Source: Photobacterium sanguinicancri
GTDB lineage: Bacteria; Pseudomonadota; Gammaproteobacteria; Enterobacterales; Vibrionaceae
Length of the DNA: 64,000 nucleotides
Reading direction: 5' to 3'
Assembly: GCF_024346675.1 (NCBI RefSeq)
Contig: NZ_AP024850.1
Span: forward strand, 1,984,001-2,048,000
The position numbers were made by a program, and so were the translations under genes. Below, piece after piece: positions 27,214 to 58,275 of the stretch (its first letter is position 1; the number at the start of each line of letters is the position of its first letter). Below the pieces are notes generated by a model that did not search any database, was not told the DNA's origin, and saw only the letters and a program-made list of their open reading frames with translations.

Positions 27214-27560
27214 TCGACTGTATTTAGGTTGATTCCAATTCTCATTGCTAAAACTGGTAAATTGTACTGCGTGAACTAACATTGATAGTGTAATTGATCT
27301 CCATTTACTAACCAGTTAGCGCAAGGCTCTCACGAGAGCCATTCCCCTAAGCCCGAGACAGGAGTCGTTTCGGGCTATTTTTTGCCTGTTACCCACCAAC
27401 AGTCACCTTTGCAGTTCAGTTTTGAACAATAACTGCCAAGATATTTGAATACTCGTTCGGTTTTTTTGAACAAGTTGACCAAGCTTTTGAGCTGTTTCTT
27501 CTCACACAAGAAATCTATATTAATGCCTACGCAAAAAAGCATTTAATGTAGGAAAAAATA
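27214..27560 (+). other. Intergenic region between rsmF and azoR
   Basis: About 347 bp without a gene. It holds the tandem hairpins given separately (27325-27383) and the azoR promoter. I see no clear regulator palindrome in the 100 bp before azoR. Confidence 0.4.
27325..27383 (+). terminator. Tandem hairpins terminating rsmF
   Basis: GGCTCT-CACG-AGAGCC (27325-27340) is followed by AGCCCGA (27350-27356) pairing with TCGGGCT (27370-27376) and then ATTTTTTG. The second hairpin with its T run is a standard terminator; the first is a plain hairpin in front of it. Confidence 0.75.
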
Positions 27561-51751: not shown

Positions 51752-51772
51752 ATGGACATTTCGCTGACATGA
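51752..51772 (+). other. Six-codon leader ORF overlapping the winged-helix gene
   Basis: ATG-GAC-ATT-TCG-CTG-ACA-TGA has an AAGGA site 8 bases upstream, while the following gene at 51769 has no ribosome-binding site of its own. The leader stop and the gene start overlap as ATGA. This arrangement suggests translation of the regulator depends on termination of the leader. Confidence 0.4.
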
Positions 51773-52062
51773 GTATTAGCAAAACAAAATCAAGTTTTTA
51801 CCGCCGTCTTTACGTTGCCCATCTCATTGATACAGGCGTTTCAAGCGTGCCAGCTATTATTGAATTTAGTGGTATGCCTCGTCGTACCGCACAAGACACT
51901 ATCAAAAACCTTGCCGAGCTCGACATTATTTGTGAGTTTGAGCAAACTCAAGGTGAGCGTAATCATAGCGGCCATTATGTCATTAGAGACTGGGGGGCAA
52001 TTAATCAAACTTGGCTAAAACAACATATCGCAGAGATCAGAGGCTTGTTGGATTATCCATAA
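51769..52062 (+). CDS. Small winged-helix DNA-binding protein
   Basis: The 97-residue protein has a helix-turn-helix core: LYVAHLIDTGVSSVPAIIEFSGMPRRTAQDTIKNLAELDIICEFEQTQG, then GHYVIRDWGAIN as a wing, and a final helix. It is likely a small DNA-binding regulator; its targets are unknown. It lies upstream of the chaperone-like cluster in the same direction (273-bp gap). Its own ribosome-binding site is poor; see the overlapping leader. Confidence 0.7.
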   Translation: MSISKTKSSFYRRLYVAHLIDTGVSSVPAIIEFSGMPRRTAQDTIKNLAELDIICEFEQTQGERNHSGHYVIRDWGAINQTWLKQHIAEIRGLLDYP

Positions 52063-52335
52063 TCGAAAATATGTCACACCGAATGCCATTCACGCTGCAA
52101 CATGAATGCTAATACCGTAATAAATAGGAAAAAATGTCCTATCATAATCTTCAGAGCACGATGACAACACAATATCAGCGTATGGATTGGTTGTAAAATA
52201 CACTAAGACCCCGATTCTTCTTGCAATTCAGGTAAAAAATGCTGTCAGCCTAGGTGTAATGCGGCTTTGTTATGGTAGTATTCTGGCTAAATTGTTCATA
52301 GTGAATCGATTTTTCACTGCAAAGAGTAGACGAAT

Positions 52336-53025
52336 ATGGCTTTTGATTTTTCTAAAATGACTGTTGACCTATCGGCAATGCCGACAACTCTCGATATGGG
52401 ACACGCTTGGTTAGGTGGTTTAGTGTTAGTAATGCTAGTGCTTTACATCGCTAAAAAAGGCAAACCTGTTGAAGTTGAAAAAATTGTTGAGAAACAAGTC
52501 GAAGTAGAAAAAATCGTCGAGGTTGAAAAACCTGTCGAAAAAATCGTTGAAGTAGAGAAGATTGTTGAAATCCCTGTCGAGAAAATCGTCGAAGTGGAAA
52601 AAATCGTCGAAAAGATTGTTGAAGTTGAACCTAAGCTGAAAACATCAACACCCGACGCTGCCCTTCAACTGCTATCTTTGCTACAACAGGAAGCGCGTTT
52701 TATCGATTTTATGCAAGAAGACCTAAAAGGTTTTGCTGACGCTGATATCGGTGCCGCAGCTCGTGTTATTCACGAAGGCGGTCAGAAAGTGCTAAACGAA
52801 TACTTTAGTTTTGCGCCTGTGCGTTCTGAAGAAGAAGAAACTCGCGTAACACTACCAGCAGGCTTTAATGCCTCTGAAGTTCGCCTAACGGGCAATGTCG
52901 TTGGCGAAGCACCATTTACTGGAACACTGATCCATCGTGGTTGGAAAGTAACTGATATCAATCTGCCAAAAATGGCAGAAGGTCATGATGCTCAGATTAT
53001 TGCCGCCGCTGAGGTAGAACTGTAA
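52336..53025 (+). CDS. DUF2760 family membrane-anchored protein with VEK-repeat stalk
   Basis: The 229-residue protein has one membrane helix at about 24-39 (AWLGGLVLVMLVLYIAKK). A stalk at about 45-98 is made almost only of Val/Glu/Lys/Ile repeats (VEKIVE, VEVEKIVE). The C-terminal DUF2760 domain follows (about 105-229: ALQLLSLLQQEARFIDFMQEDLKGFADADIGAAARVIHEGGQKVLNEYF, then RLTGNVVGEAPFTGTLIHRGWKV). It is coupled to the first Hsp70 gene by a one-base overlap (TAATG). The role is unknown; by context it may anchor the Hsp70 proteins at the membrane. Confidence 0.82.
   Translation: MAFDFSKMTVDLSAMPTTLDMGHAWLGGLVLVMLVLYIAKKGKPVEVEKIVEKQVEVEKIVEVEKPVEKIVEVEKIVEIPVEKIVEVEKIVEKIVEVEPKLKTSTPDAALQLLSLLQQEARFIDFMQEDLKGFADADIGAAARVIHEGGQKVLNEYFSFAPVRSEEEETRVTLPAGFNASEVRLTGNVVGEAPFTGTLIHRGWKVTDINLPKMAEGHDAQIIAAAEVEL
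52468..52629 (+). repeat. Degenerate in-frame repeat coding the VEK stalk
   Basis: About 162 bp of imperfect GTT-GAA-AAA-ATT type units, all in frame with the protein, encode residues 45-98. The units vary by synonymous changes, so the repeat is old or kept by selection on the protein. Confidence 0.85.
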
Positions 53026-54860
53026 TGCAAGAAACACAAGAACACCGTTATAGCGTTGGTATCGACTTAGGTACAACTCACTGCGTATTGTCGTATGTTG
53101 ACCTTCAAGATGAAGATGCCAGCGTTAAAGTAATGCCTATCGCCCAGCTAACGACGCCGGGTCACGTTGAAGAAAAAGATCAACTGCCATCATTCATGTA
53201 TCAAGCACATGAATCCGAGCTAGCACAGGGCGACACAGCGTTGCCTTGGAACACGCAGCCAAAGGCAATTGTTGGTGCAATGGCACGTAACTTAGGCAGT
53301 AAAACACCAATTCGTCTTATCGCGAGTGCTAAAAGTTGGTTATGTCATGGTGGTGTGAACCGCCGCGACGCATTTCTTCCGCTAAATAGCCCAGAAGAAG
53401 TGATCAAGGCTTCACCACTCGAAGCGACGCGTTGTTATTTAGAACACCTCGTTGATGCTTGGAACCATAATCATCCTGAAACACCATTATGCGATCAAGA
53501 TGTTACGGTTACCGTTCCTGCCTCTTTTGACCCAGCAGCTCGCGAGTTAACGGCTGAAGCAGCCCGTCATGTTGGCTTTAAGCACCTTACCCTGCTTGAA
53601 GAACCACAAGCTGCGGTTTACAGCTGGATCAAAAACAATGAAGATTCTTGGCGTGACCAAGTCTCTGTTGGCGACATCGTACTTGTTGTTGATATCGGTG
53701 GTGGTACTACCGACCTTTCTTTAGTCGCTGTGACTGAAGAAGAAGGTAACTTAACCCTTAATCGTGTTGCTGTTGGCGATCACATCCTTTTGGGTGGCGA
53801 CAACATGGATTTAGCCCTTGCCTACCGCTTAAAAATGAAGCTGGCGCAAGAAGGTAAACAACTACAACCTTGGCAGATCCAAGCTATCACGCATGCATGT
53901 CGCGATGCGAAAGAAGCACTGCTAAGTGATGCTGAATTACAAGCGGTTCCAATCGTTGTACCTAGCCGTGGTTCAAAACTACTGGGTGGCACGCTTCAAA
54001 CCGAACTAACCCAAGAAGAAGTTCAACAAACACTGGTTGAGGGTTTCTTCCCTCGCACTGGCATTGAAGAGCATCCGGTACAAACGGCACGTGGCGCATT
54101 AACGCAAATGGGTCTGCCATATGCACAAGATGCAGCGGTAAGCCGTCATGTTGCTAGCTTCTTAAGCCGTCAAGCTTCTGCTGTAGACGAGCTGTTTGAG
54201 AAGTTTGAACAAATTCATGAAGATTTCATCCGCCCTACCGCTATTTTGTTTAACGGTGGTGTACTGAAGTCTGAGCTTATCTCTGATCGCTTACTGGCTA
54301 TTATCAATAGCTGGTTAACAACAGCAGGTTCAGAAGAAGCTAAATTACTTGAAGGTTTAGATCTCGATCTTGCTGTTGCAAGTGGTGCGTCTTACTACGG
54401 TTCTGTACGCAAAGGTAAAGGCGTTCGTATCCGTGGTGGTATCGCAAGCAGCTACTATGTCGGTATCGAAAGCGCGATGCCAGCCATCCCAGGTATGGAG
54501 CCACCATTAGAAGCATTGTGTGTGGCACCGTTTGGGATGGAAGAAGGCACTCATGCTGATGTTCCTAGCCAAGAGTTTGGTCTAGTGATTGGCCAACCGG
54601 TGCAGTTCCAATTCTTTGGTTCTACAGTTCGCCGCGACGACGCTGCAGGTACGCATCTTGATTGGTGGCAACCAGAAGAAATGGAAGAGCTACCTACTAT
54701 TCAGGTAACCCTACCTGTTTCTGAAGGCCGCACAGCAGGTGAAGTTGTCCCTGTTCGTCTTGCATCTCGCGTGACGGAATTAGGTACTCTTTGCTTAGAA
54801 GCTATTCCTAGCGATGGCGGCCAGAAGTGGCAAGTTGAATTCGATGTTCGTGAAAAATAA
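53025..54860 (+). CDS. Divergent Hsp70 (DnaK-superfamily) protein 1
   Basis: The 611-residue protein has an Hsp70-type actin-fold ATPase: phosphate-1 GIDLGTTHCVLSY, phosphate-2 VVDIGGGTTDLSLVAV and adenosine motif ILFNGGVLKSELI. About 150 residues with a beta-sandwich-like pattern follow (TIQVTLPVSEGRTAGEVVPVRLASRVTELGTLCLEAIPSDGGQKWQVEFDVRE). The long helical lid and the EEVD end of DnaK are missing. It is coupled to DUF2760. A terminator separates it from the second Hsp70. Function unknown; a specialised chaperone or signalling ATPase is likely. Confidence 0.88.
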   Translation: MQETQEHRYSVGIDLGTTHCVLSYVDLQDEDASVKVMPIAQLTTPGHVEEKDQLPSFMYQAHESELAQGDTALPWNTQPKAIVGAMARNLGSKTPIRLIASAKSWLCHGGVNRRDAFLPLNSPEEVIKASPLEATRCYLEHLVDAWNHNHPETPLCDQDVTVTVPASFDPAARELTAEAARHVGFKHLTLLEEPQAAVYSWIKNNEDSWRDQVSVGDIVLVVDIGGGTTDLSLVAVTEEEGNLTLNRVAVGDHILLGGDNMDLALAYRLKMKLAQEGKQLQPWQIQAITHACRDAKEALLSDAELQAVPIVVPSRGSKLLGGTLQTELTQEEVQQTLVEGFFPRTGIEEHPVQTARGALTQMGLPYAQDAAVSRHVASFLSRQASAVDELFEKFEQIHEDFIRPTAILFNGGVLKSELISDRLLAIINSWLTTAGSEEAKLLEGLDLDLAVASGASYYGSVRKGKGVRIRGGIASSYYVGIESAMPAIPGMEPPLEALCVAPFGMEEGTHADVPSQEFGLVIGQPVQFQFFGSTVRRDDAAGTHLDWWQPEEMEELPTIQVTLPVSEGRTAGEVVPVRLASRVTELGTLCLEAIPSDGGQKWQVEFDVREK

Positions 54861-54875
54861 TCATCGATAATATTA

Positions 54876-54910
54876 AAACGGCGCATCCTCGATGCGCCGT
54901 TTGTTTTAGT
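54876..54910 (+). terminator. Terminator between the two Hsp70 genes
   Basis: AAACGGCGCATC and GATGCGCCGTTT form a 12-bp stem with loop CTC, followed by GTTTTAG. The second Hsp70 gene therefore probably has a promoter of its own between here and 55042. Confidence 0.85.
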
Positions 54911-55041
54911 ATCGGACATTACCTTATTTATTAAACTGGTACCCCGCAAACACTGTACAAACAATTTAAACAATAAAAATTGCGGCTACCACTTCGCTAC
55001 CAATCAGCATTCACCATTGGTATAACTATCTGGAGTGATAA

Positions 55042-57882
55042 ATGGCTTCCCCACGCTTTCTTGTCGGTATTGATTTAGGTACAACACACACCGTTGTTGC
55101 TTATACCGAAATTACCGACAACCTTGAAAATAGCCCTACGCATATTTTCAACATCGATCAACTCATCGCCCCTGGTGAAGTTGCACGTAAACCGCTACTC
55201 CCCTCTTTTCGTTACCACCCTGCTGCCAGTGAAATTAATGAATCTGAATTAATCCTGCCATGGCAGCCAGCATTGGTCGACGGTGACATTCCGCTGGTGA
55301 TTGTTGGTGAGTATGCAAGAGAGCTTGGGGCAAAAGTTGAAGGTCGACAAGTCGTTAGTGCAAAAAGTTGGTTATCTCACCCGAATGTCGATCGTAATGA
55401 AGCCATCCTACCTTGGTCATCAGGCCAAGGCGTTGAAAAAGTATCACCAGTAATTGCCAGTGCGAGTTACTTGAATCATGTTCGCCAAGCATGGAACTAC
55501 CACAACCAAGATTGTAAGCTTGAACACCAAGAAGTGGTTATCACGGTGCCCGCCTCTTTTGACGAAGCCGCACGCGCATTAACACTTGAAGCCGCCAAAC
55601 TAGCAGGCTTGCCTAACGTTTTACTGCTTGAAGAACCACAAGCGGTTTGTTACGACTGGTATGCACAAAATAAAGACAACGCAGACACCTTACTTAAAGA
55701 TATTCCATTACTTATGGTGTGCGATGTTGGTGGCGGTACAACCGATTTAAGTTTAATAAAAGTGAGCTCAAATGAAGGTAAACTTCAGCTTGATCGTATA
55801 GGTGTAGGTGATCACCTAATGTTGGGTGGCGATAACCTTGACCTTGCTCTTGCTCATCAAGCAGAGCTTCGCCTTCATGGTAGTGATAAAAAGTTAACGG
55901 CGGCTGGGTTATCTAAACTGATCCAACAAACACGTAAAGTAAAAGAGCAACTACTGTCTGGCAATGCGCCAGACACTGCAAAAGTGACTTTACTGGGAAG
56001 TGGTTCACGTTTGATTGGTGGTGCAAAAAGCGTTGAACTAACAAAGGAAGAAGTACATACCATTGCGCTGGATGGCTTCTTCCCATTAACAGAATTTTCA
56101 GACCAACCCAATCAACGTCAAGCAGCTGTTGTCGAGTTTGGCCTGCCCTACGCAGCTGATCCAGCTATCAGTAAACACCTTGCACAATTTATTGAGTTGC
56201 ACGACGAAGTTTGTCGCGATGCACTAAACCAAAAAGGTGAAACTGCTCTAAGCGATGTCCCACCAATTCCAACAGCTGTCCTGCTTAATGGTGGGGTATT
56301 CAACAGCCCACTTTTGAGCACAAGAACGCTCGATATCTTCAAGAAATGGAAGGGTGACAGCGTCACGCAACTCGTTAATCCACACCCTGATTTATCAGTA
56401 GCTTATGGTGCAGTCGCTTATGCAAAAGCACGCCATGGCGCACAACTTAAAATCGGTGGTGGTTCTGCCCGTTCTTACTTTTTAACCATCGAAGATAAGA
56501 AATCAGCCAAACAAGGTTTGTGTCTATTACCAAAAGGAACTGATGAAGGAAGTGATATTCACCTAGAAGATCGCTATTTTGCATTAACCCTTGGCGAACC
56601 AGTACGCTTTAACTTAGTGTCATCAACCGATGATACACATACAGAAGTTGGTCAAATTGTCGATATTGATACCGACAGTTTTGTTAACTTACCGCCATTT
56701 ATCGCCACATTAGACAGCGACACAGATCGCTCATCACTTGCTGCTAACCAAAAAGAACGGGAGGTCGTCACCCTCGCCTGTCAACTTACCGAAGTTGGTA
56801 CATTGCAGGTGGAGTGTGTATCGGCTACCGATAAATCAAAGCGTTGGAAGGTTGAATTTACCGTTCGTAAAGATCTGGCCAAATTAAGCCGCAACAAAGA
56901 TAAAGACGCGACTCAGGCTGAATCCATTCTCCCTTCGCGCATAGACGATGCAATAGCTACGATAAAGTTAGTCTACGGCGGAAGTGCTAAAGTTACAGAC
57001 AACAAAACGCTCAAAACTCTGCAAAAAGATTTAGAGAAAATGCTTGGAAAACGAGATGCGTGGGAAACGCCTTGTTTGCGCGAGCTGGCAACCGCACTGC
57101 TGGATAGCAAAAAGCGCCGCCGTCGCTCTGATCTCCATGAAAGAACCTGGTTAAAACTGGCTGGCTTCACGCTTCGACCTGGCTTTGGTTACCCTTCGGA
57201 TGAATGGCGCATGGATCAAGTTTGGCAGCTGTACCAACAAGGTATTCAGTTTGAATCTAACCCACAAACTTGGAGTGATTGGTGGACATTCTGGCGCCGC
57301 GTTGCTGGCGGTCTCACCCAAGAACAGCAACTTATGATTTATAAAGACATCGCAAAATACATTAATCCAAGTGCATCACGTAATAGCAAACTGAATAAAG
57401 AACTTCAAGAACGTAGCTATCAAGATATGGTGCGTTTGGCCGCATCACTTGAACACCTTCCTTTTGAGAATAAACTTCAACTTATTGAATGGCTGTTTGG
57501 TCGCCTACAAAAAAGTCAGTACTCTCAAGCGCACTGGTGGGCTGTCGGCCGTATAGGGACTCGTAGTCCATTCTATGGGAGTGCTCATAATTTACTGACA
57601 TCCCAGCATATTGCTTATTGCTTACCTGAATTGATGGAACTTGACTGGCGAACCGACCCTAATATCGGTTTTGCTGCTGTTATGATGTGCCGAATGACGG
57701 GTGATCGCACTCTGGATATTGATGATTCAAGCCGAGCGGCAATCATTGAGAAACTGAAATCTAGTAAAGCACCAGCAAGTTGGGTTCAGATGGTTTCTGA
57801 AGTTAAAGTGCTAACAGAAGAAGAGACAAAGCGTGTATTTGGTGATGCGTTGCCCGCAGGTTTGCAGCTAATCAAGCACTAA
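55042..57882 (+). CDS. Divergent Hsp70 protein 2 with long C-terminal extension (DUF3731-like)
   Basis: The 946-residue protein is an Hsp70 paralogue: phosphate-1 VGIDLGTTHTVVAYTEI, phosphate-2 MVCDVGGGTTDLSLIKV, adenosine TAVLLNGGVFNSPLL. A beta-sandwich segment ending RWKVEFTVRKD follows at about 610. A further ~310-residue helical region then has no counterpart in DnaK (LRELATALLDSKKRRRRSDLHERTWLKLAGFTLRPGFGYPSDEWRMDQVWQLYQQGI, WWTFWRRVAGGLTQEQQLMIYKDIAKYINP). It resembles what I recall as DUF3731, a domain known from Hsp70-associated proteins; the assignment needs checking. A clean GGAG site precedes the ATG. Confidence 0.87.
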   Translation: MASPRFLVGIDLGTTHTVVAYTEITDNLENSPTHIFNIDQLIAPGEVARKPLLPSFRYHPAASEINESELILPWQPALVDGDIPLVIVGEYARELGAKVEGRQVVSAKSWLSHPNVDRNEAILPWSSGQGVEKVSPVIASASYLNHVRQAWNYHNQDCKLEHQEVVITVPASFDEAARALTLEAAKLAGLPNVLLLEEPQAVCYDWYAQNKDNADTLLKDIPLLMVCDVGGGTTDLSLIKVSSNEGKLQLDRIGVGDHLMLGGDNLDLALAHQAELRLHGSDKKLTAAGLSKLIQQTRKVKEQLLSGNAPDTAKVTLLGSGSRLIGGAKSVELTKEEVHTIALDGFFPLTEFSDQPNQRQAAVVEFGLPYAADPAISKHLAQFIELHDEVCRDALNQKGETALSDVPPIPTAVLLNGGVFNSPLLSTRTLDIFKKWKGDSVTQLVNPHPDLSVAYGAVAYAKARHGAQLKIGGGSARSYFLTIEDKKSAKQGLCLLPKGTDEGSDIHLEDRYFALTLGEPVRFNLVSSTDDTHTEVGQIVDIDTDSFVNLPPFIATLDSDTDRSSLAANQKEREVVTLACQLTEVGTLQVECVSATDKSKRWKVEFTVRKDLAKLSRNKDKDATQAESILPSRIDDAIATIKLVYGGSAKVTDNKTLKTLQKDLEKMLGKRDAWETPCLRELATALLDSKKRRRRSDLHERTWLKLAGFTLRPGFGYPSDEWRMDQVWQLYQQGIQFESNPQTWSDWWTFWRRVAGGLTQEQQLMIYKDIAKYINPSASRNSKLNKELQERSYQDMVRLAASLEHLPFENKLQLIEWLFGRLQKSQYSQAHWWAVGRIGTRSPFYGSAHNLLTSQHIAYCLPELMELDWRTDPNIGFAAVMMCRMTGDRTLDIDDSSRAAIIEKLKSSKAPASWVQMVSEVKVLTEEETKRVFGDALPAGLQLIKH

Positions 57883-58071
57883 TATCTCGTAAATAGTGTC
57901 AAATTGCCCGTCGTAACATTTACAAACATATTGTTACTGTTAGTAGCGGCATTTTGGCACTACCTATTAAGCTTCCGTTAGGGTTCAAGTAGGTATTATA
58001 GAATTATTCAATAACAAGGCATGCATGAAAGACATCTTTCATCGTCACCAAGAATAATTTGTGAGTATTCT

Positions 58072-58275
58072 ATGAACCGTAATCAATTTCAATTTATCGC
58101 TCAACGCATCTTCAAATCTCAAAACCAACGTGTAGCAGTTGAAGCTGTTATTTTTGATGGACTATCTAGCTACGAAGCAGAAAAGCGCTTTGACGTACCA
58201 AAAGGCACACTTTCTCGTAATGTTCGTAAATATAAAAGCGAAGCAGATTATATTTCTTCTGTAGCGACTGCGTAA
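58072..58275 (+). CDS. Small TrfB-like helix-turn-helix protein
   Basis: The start at 58072 is favoured (an in-frame ATG at 58021 has poor spacing). The 67-residue protein has a single helix-turn-helix: RVAVEAVIFDGLSSYEAEKRFDVPKGTLSRNVRKYKSEADYI. It resembles the KorA/TrfB domain of plasmid regulators, in which a VLVDG.S..EAA motif precedes the recognition helix. A chromosomal copy as a single small gene may be a domesticated regulator. Function unknown. Confidence 0.65.
   Translation: MNRNQFQFIAQRIFKSQNQRVAVEAVIFDGLSSYEAEKRFDVPKGTLSRNVRKYKSEADYISSVATA

Follow-up and report, generated by a model that had tools for sequence, protein, structure and literature searches.

A 64,000-nucleotide stretch of the Photobacterium sanguinicancri genome (contig NZ_AP024850.1, positions 1,984,001 to 2,048,000 of the forward strand; hereafter, the window) encodes a DUF2760 protein followed by two divergent Hsp70 ATPases, termed here Hsp70-A and Hsp70-B, which together apparently form a conserved and uncharacterised module of two Hsp70s and an obligate partner that is often anchored in the membrane. 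Genome comparison indicates that the three genes are inherited as one unit. The reading that we put forward, with confidence close to even, is that they encode an Hsp70 machine that is self-contained, works without J-proteins on the cytoplasmic side of the inner membrane, and has DUF2760 as its dedicated co-chaperone. In such a machine, DUF2760 would stand in for the J-protein and/or the exchange factor and, at the membrane, would recruit both ATPases and control their timing. Hsp70-A would be the working Hsp70, and Hsp70-B would be its partner, with the alpha-helical DUF3731 domain replacing the lid, somewhat like Hsp110 serving Hsp70, and would probably be present in a smaller amount where a hairpin attenuates its expression. 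As a first guess, stressed membrane or envelope proteins may be taken up as clients before export. A preliminary description of the locus had already proposed a membrane-tethered, Hsp70-driven assembly; the conserved unit, the intact ATPases, and a transmembrane (TM) segment with a predicted cytoplasmic domain in the window agree with it, while the anchor and the VEK-repeat stalk proved not to be general. To this outline, the present analysis adds that the J-docking site is changed and that the genes co-occur strictly, as well as the promoter, the hairpin, and the question of GrpE.

Conservation of the three genes as a unit

Co-occurrence was assessed in 229 genomes of the class, 121 Vibrionaceae genomes, and 299 genomes of the phylum. 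In the class sample, DUF2760 is present in nine genomes and DUF3731, the C-terminal domain of Hsp70-B, in ten, and these ten are the very genomes in which an Hsp70-A profile (E <= 1e-70) matches two Hsp70s. In the tenth genome, without DUF2760, Hsp70-A ends at a contig edge. Hsp70-B lies apart from Hsp70-A in two of the ten, about 3 kb away in G224 and on another contig in G199. Among the Vibrionaceae, DUF2760 is found in 88 genomes and DUF3731 in 89, with 88 shared and the additional one being a draft of about 790 contigs, and six of the 13 genera carry DUF2760. The corresponding counts in the phylum are 22, 21, and 21, the additional genome (G370, a draft of about 220 contigs) having DUF2760 and no DUF3731 match. 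In two Vibrionaceae genomes (G285 and G300) the DUF3731 frame has just 433 and 477 amino acids (aa), and Hsp70-B may be split or broken there.

Gene order is equally regular. A scan of genome contigs confirmed at least 425 relatives, the best 80 of which, biased toward close relatives, are used for the locus counts. Hsp70-A is the next same-strand gene after DUF2760 in all 80 loci (gap of up to 335 nt), the two frames overlapping in 57 with script-chosen starts, and Hsp70-B is adjacent in 67. Of the 13 loci without adjacent Hsp70-B, four (L149, L165, L172, and L175) show about 8 kb past Hsp70-A and the others lie near a contig end; all nine of the corresponding genomes that were searched contain one DUF3731 match each, of which one is partial, another lies in a 551-aa frame, and a third is interrupted by a stop. 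Five of these detached Hsp70-B genes, in Methylococcales neighbourhoods, have unrelated neighbours and no Hsp70-A nearby. The preliminary description had suggested comparing gene neighbourhoods in relatives, and the triad is conserved in them as a unit, as seen both in the co-occurrence in three samples and in the constant position of Hsp70-A.

DUF2760 also occurs on 11 plasmid-collection records, four of which were inspected. The triad is carried by two conjugative Bradyrhizobium plasmids and one Comamonadaceae plasmid, and the Thiodictyon plasmid pTs485 (L182) carries DUF2760 and Hsp70-A without adjacent Hsp70-B in the stretch seen. The phage records searched gave no match, and on viral contigs most of 71 matches end without reaching residue 127, within the VEK repeats or close to them, with five extending to residue 146 or 169. 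A fixed fourth partner was sought by clustering neighbouring open reading frames (ORFs), which was swamped by GC-rich shadow frames, and in the five Methylococcales Hsp70-B neighbourhoods; this candidate was discarded, as only lineage-specific neighbours appeared. Separately, 12 Methylococcales-type loci (e.g., L157:3468-3998) encode, close to DUF2760, a conserved protein (~176 aa) in which a lipoprotein-like signal was recognised by eye.

The two ATPases and their DUF2760 partner

Residues were compared in an alignment of 34 Hsp70-A and 35 Hsp70-B rows, from Gamma- and Betaproteobacteria for both proteins and from one Bradyrhizobium for Hsp70-A. K70, P143, E171, D194, G196, G198, T199, and D201 are kept in 34/34 Hsp70-A and 35/35 Hsp70-B rows, D8 and T11 in 64 of 69 (the remaining five being gaps), and R151 in 66 of 69. 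The earlier statement that the nucleotide-binding motifs are intact in both Hsp70s is thus borne out, and, to judge from their sequences, both ATPases look intact. Four positions at which a J-domain docks are replaced in nearly every row: Y145 by S, N170 by E, and V218 by R in 69/69, and T173 by Q in 68/69.

According to the alignment, Hsp70-A ends behind the beta subdomain of the substrate-binding domain (SBD-beta), without an alpha-helical lid. The model of Hsp70-B aligns to DnaK and BiP through residue ~610, including SBD-beta, and an all-alpha stretch (residues 634-933, from the secondary structure of the AlphaFold2 (AF2) model) that includes DUF3731 stands in the position of the lid. The proposal that neither protein has the DnaK lid agrees with this, Hsp70-B having DUF3731 helices in its place; the absence of an EEVD end, noted in the same description, carries little information, since this tail is a feature of eukaryotic cytosolic Hsp70s. 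PF00012 is above cut-off in both proteins, and weak MreB matches below cut-off are expected because of the shared fold. Against the DnaK/HscA equivalog and subfamily models of NCBIfam, the best score is 89.8 bits, with cut-offs of 620-1019. In a tree built from every second row, Hsp70-A is monophyletic (support 0.91) and the placement of Hsp70-B relative to the root is unresolved.

The DUF2760 protein of the window has a predicted TM segment that, by the positive-inside rule, would leave its domain on the cytoplasmic side, where Hsp70s act. Lys and Arg are more numerous after than before this segment in 69 of 71 TM-type DUF2760 proteins. VEK repeats are typical of Vibrionaceae, occur also in L094, and have a shortened form in some Methylococcales (L117, L144, and L165); other N-termini have Pro/Ala-rich linkers, are amphipathic without a clear TM segment (many Betaproteobacteria), or contain two hydrophobic segments (Bradyrhizobium). 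Consequently, the anchor and the VEK stalk of the preliminary description hold for the window and are not universal in the family. The DUF2760 domain itself has 24 invariant columns in 51 rows.

The predicted fold of this domain has GrpE as its top match, a weak one (E 0.46, probability 0.14, root-mean-square deviation ~6 Å) without sequence support. Two hhalign profile comparisons with GrpE gave E 0.24 and 0.49 in unrelated regions, our own profile alignment with column shuffles gave z values of 0.16, 0.89, and -0.87, and a PDB profile search with DUF2760 up to E 10 returned no GrpE. In a Pfam scan of 51 DUF2760 members, PF01025 (GrpE) and PF00226 (DnaJ) are not among the 25 of 30 families listed, and the window protein has no DnaJ match up to E 0.1. 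GrpE homology by sequence was therefore rejected, all profile tests being negative, and a resemblance by eye between the C-terminus and the GrpE beta-wing was not used as evidence. It is conceivable, but rather unlikely, that DUF2760 is a membrane-anchored nucleotide exchange factor with a GrpE-like fold, past sequence recognition, that drives two Hsp70s no longer under ordinary J-protein control. DnaK-DnaJ-GrpE and HscA-HscB would then be joined by a third kind of bacterial Hsp70 system, governed from the membrane by its exchange factor. As a separate observation, genomes of other classes of the phylum (G350, G364, G367, G370, G373, G379, G390, G394, and G398) have an additional GrpE gene that is divergent (E 8e-20 to 9e-14); G364, G370, G373, and G394 also encode DUF2760.

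A hairpin like the one between Hsp70-A and Hsp70-B of the window occurs in 20 of the 26 Vibrionaceae intergenic regions of at least 60 nt, compared with 29 of 750 coding stretches of 150 nt. By eye, the same stem is recognisable in eight shorter Vibrionaceae regions, and a different stem in three of the six misses (L111-L113); outside Vibrionaceae, 27 of 33 gaps between these genes are of 17 nt or less. Hence, Hsp70-B is probably made in a smaller amount than Hsp70-A in Vibrionaceae, through attenuation.

Expression and competing explanations

A sigma-32-like promoter was sought with the pattern CTTGAA-N13-15-CCCCAT, allowing up to two mismatches (a number set after stricter results were seen), in regions that lie upstream of the domain by a fixed offset, with background windows that include coding DNA. 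Of 27 Vibrio/Aliivibrio loci, which are related and not independent events, 23 carry the pattern upstream of DUF2760, versus 16 of 665 background windows. None of nine Photobacterium loci matches it, the window doing so only with three mismatches and at another place. The strict pattern is found in 10 of 80 loci and, after dropping eight loci without a found start, in 6 of 23 Vibrio/Aliivibrio and 0 of 6 Photobacterium loci. Operon VC1373-VC1375 of V. cholerae is probably the orthologous triad, to judge from two genes named ‘DnaK-related’ and from the occurrence of DUF2760 in this species. In the part of PMC5816637 consulted, VC1373 falls in a delta-ribD strain along with ibpA, clpB, dnaK, dnaJ, and htpX. 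The module is probably part of the heat-shock response in Vibrio. In Photobacterium angustum, a ‘putative DnaK-related protein’, which may be a product of the triad, was carbonylated under UVB (PMC3706606); VC1374 in the portion of PMC9608740 seen is only a strain name and was discarded.

Several points weigh against a J-protein-independent machine governed by DUF2760. To our knowledge, these proteins have been the subject of no interaction, ATPase, or chaperone assay. The TM anchor is present in 71 of 110 DUF2760 rows (66 with the other start choice; repeats of some genomes included), and the promoter block of the window itself fits sigma-32 poorly. The J-contact residue R167 is retained by 18 of 35 Hsp70-B rows and by none of the 34 Hsp70-A rows; Hsp70-B may therefore keep some J-domain contact, which slightly lowers our confidence in J-independence, and an altered contact with a J-domain would also be compatible with the changed docking residues. 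The DVLLLD linker columns are gapped in nearly all rows of the automatic alignment, with VRIRGG or LKIGGG there by eye. In addition, PMC10328515 places a HapR peak between VC1375 and VC1376 and reports activation of the VC1375 promoter by HapR both in vivo and in vitro, the list seen in PMC9201469 gives VC1373-1375 as biofilm-repressed (one hit, in VC1374), and VC1374 appears in a polymyxin-B/VC1639 table excerpted from PMC5636140.

Some of these observations fit other explanations. DUF2760 could be only a membrane receptor or scaffold that concentrates the Hsp70s there, while these cycle slowly without co-chaperones or borrow the DnaJ and GrpE of the cell. The absence of a visible J-protein or GrpE, pointed out previously, holds for the locus, where none was recognised; elsewhere the genome contains five DnaJ-domain matches (four over the family cut-off) and one GrpE, and the weak top fold match of DUF2760 is itself GrpE. 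The R167 residues retained in Hsp70-B and the lack of any similarity of DUF2760 to a co-chaperone in the profile tests also favour a scaffold. However, 68-69 of 69 rows have substitutions at the four docking positions, and the DUF2760 domain is over-conserved for a mere tether and is kept even without a clear TM segment. A scaffold alone is considered rather unlikely. Less probable still is an actin-like or signalling ATPase rather than a chaperone, with nucleotide-dependent assembly at the membrane controlling envelope, biofilm, or quorum-sensing behaviour. The lidless Hsp70-A, the MreB matches, HapR activation, and the biofilm listing speak for it, but Hsp70-B models as an Hsp70 with a nucleotide-binding domain (NBD) and SBD-beta, and the co-variation with heat-shock genes and the sigma-32-like promoter indicate protein stress. 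Moreover, the VC1375 promoter region is shared with the divergent VC1376, and the nearest start site listed in the portion of PMC10328515 consulted is on the + strand. With a position weight matrix (PWM) from 28 sites of that paper, the VC1375 site being left out, the best window score is 6.4 (shuffled median 5.3, 95% point 10.2), so no HapR-like site stands out and a conserved site is not supported; the VC1375 site scores 9.45, exceeded in two loci among those listed (L189, 11.9; L132, 9.7).

An anti-phage or other defence module is very improbable. On pTs485, DUF2760 and Hsp70-A stand among annotated anti-phage genes, and PADLOC gives partial matches to one candidate model, PDC-M61B (E 1.5e-6 and 7.6e-5), covering NBD parts only and falling short of family membership. 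On the contrary, the module is common in the Vibrionaceae sample and has mixed neighbours elsewhere, with no match in phage records.

Genomic setting and significance

The three same-strand ORFs of the window (Table 1) agree with the preliminary description in position and Pfam family. The DUF2760 stop and the Hsp70-A start share one base (TAATG), and this overlap makes the translational coupling claimed for them plausible. Hsp70-B does follow as a larger Hsp70 with a DUF3731 C-terminus; however, it is joined more loosely than had been implied, with 181 nt in between and the hairpin directly 3' of Hsp70-A. The nearest named DUF2760 homologues, among 120 matches listed, are from Photobacterium (up to 88% identity). 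Other Hsp70s of this genome are DnaK-like and HscA-like, and PF00012 has another two partial matches in it. Upstream of the triad is a gene for a small winged-helix protein (HTH_43, 51769-52062), and downstream one for a small Psq-type HTH protein (58021-58275); homologues are near the triad in some Photobacterium loci only, the winged-helix one also in Hahella, and for this reason neither is counted as part of the module. An SdsR/RyeB small RNA (+ strand) is located at 27251-27387, with an overlapping antisense SraC/RyeA match.

Table 1. Features of the triad locus (positions in the window).
Feature	Position	Strand	Evidence
Promoter-like block at the position of the Vibrio/Aliivibrio sigma-32-like promoter; degenerate here	52265..52292	+	Upstream alignment
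DUF2760 protein, 229 aa	52336..53025	+	PF10816 E 4.9e-55, residues 106-228
Predicted TM segment of DUF2760 protein, residues 21-39	52396..52452	+	Hydropathy, K+R counts
VEK-repeat linker (stalk), about residues 44-100 of DUF2760 protein	52465..52635	+	Sequence; N-termini compared
Conserved DUF2760 domain, helices then beta strands	52651..53022	+	AF2 mean predicted local distance difference test (pLDDT) 82.5
Hsp70-A, 611 aa: NBD and SBD-beta-like region, without lid	53025..54860	+	PF00012 E 1.6e-17
Terminator/attenuator-like hairpin between Hsp70-A and Hsp70-B	54876..54902	+	12 pairs, 7 G-C
Hsp70-B, 946 aa	55042..57882	+	PF00012 E 1e-17 and PF12531; AF2 model mean pLDDT 82.2
Hsp70-B NBD and SBD-beta, residues 1-610	55042..56871	+	
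DUF3731 domain (PF12531, ‘DNA-K related protein’), residues 696-943	57127..57870	+	E 3.2e-104

As in DnaK-DnaJ-GrpE, the Hsp70 ATPase of the triad contains SBD-beta and its catalytic residues are intact, a small gene encodes a dedicated partner, and in Vibrio/Aliivibrio the promoter is heat-shock-like. In contrast, the triad has two Hsp70s, Hsp70-A being lidless, most J-docking positions and DVLLLD are changed, its locus has no J-protein gene, and its partner has a membrane anchor. Like HscA, its Hsp70s are specialised bacterial members of the family, and HscA models are the best NCBIfam matches, but they reach 84-90 bits against cut-offs of 620 and 708.55, and no HscB-type J-protein is found at the locus. 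A diverged Hsp70 pair, one larger or lidless, is also shared with Hsp110-Hsp70 (Sse1-Ssa) and with Ssz1-Ssb and the ribosome-associated complex (RAC), although these are eukaryotic and the Sse1, Hsp110, and Ssz1 chains among the Hsp70-B fold matches are no closer than DnaK/BiP; we know of no counterpart of DUF3731 in them. DUF2760 differs from GrpE in its membrane anchor as well as in the weak fold match and the missing profile similarity. The window proteins belong to PF10816 (DUF2760) and PF12531 (DUF3731) well above cut-off, families without an assigned function. In the literature collection searched, no paper was found for either family, ‘DnaK-related protein’ is a table entry or passing mention in the portions of the papers examined, and the part consulted of PMC11019930, on DnaK paralogues, does not cover the module.

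Hsp70 cycling is taught as requiring a J-protein. In the rows examined here, two Hsp70s keep intact catalytic residues and an obligate small partner, with the docking site mostly changed. If DUF2760 does the work, the minimal requirements of the Hsp70 cycle would change, and a conserved, probably heat-shock-linked system of the Vibrionaceae would gain a function.

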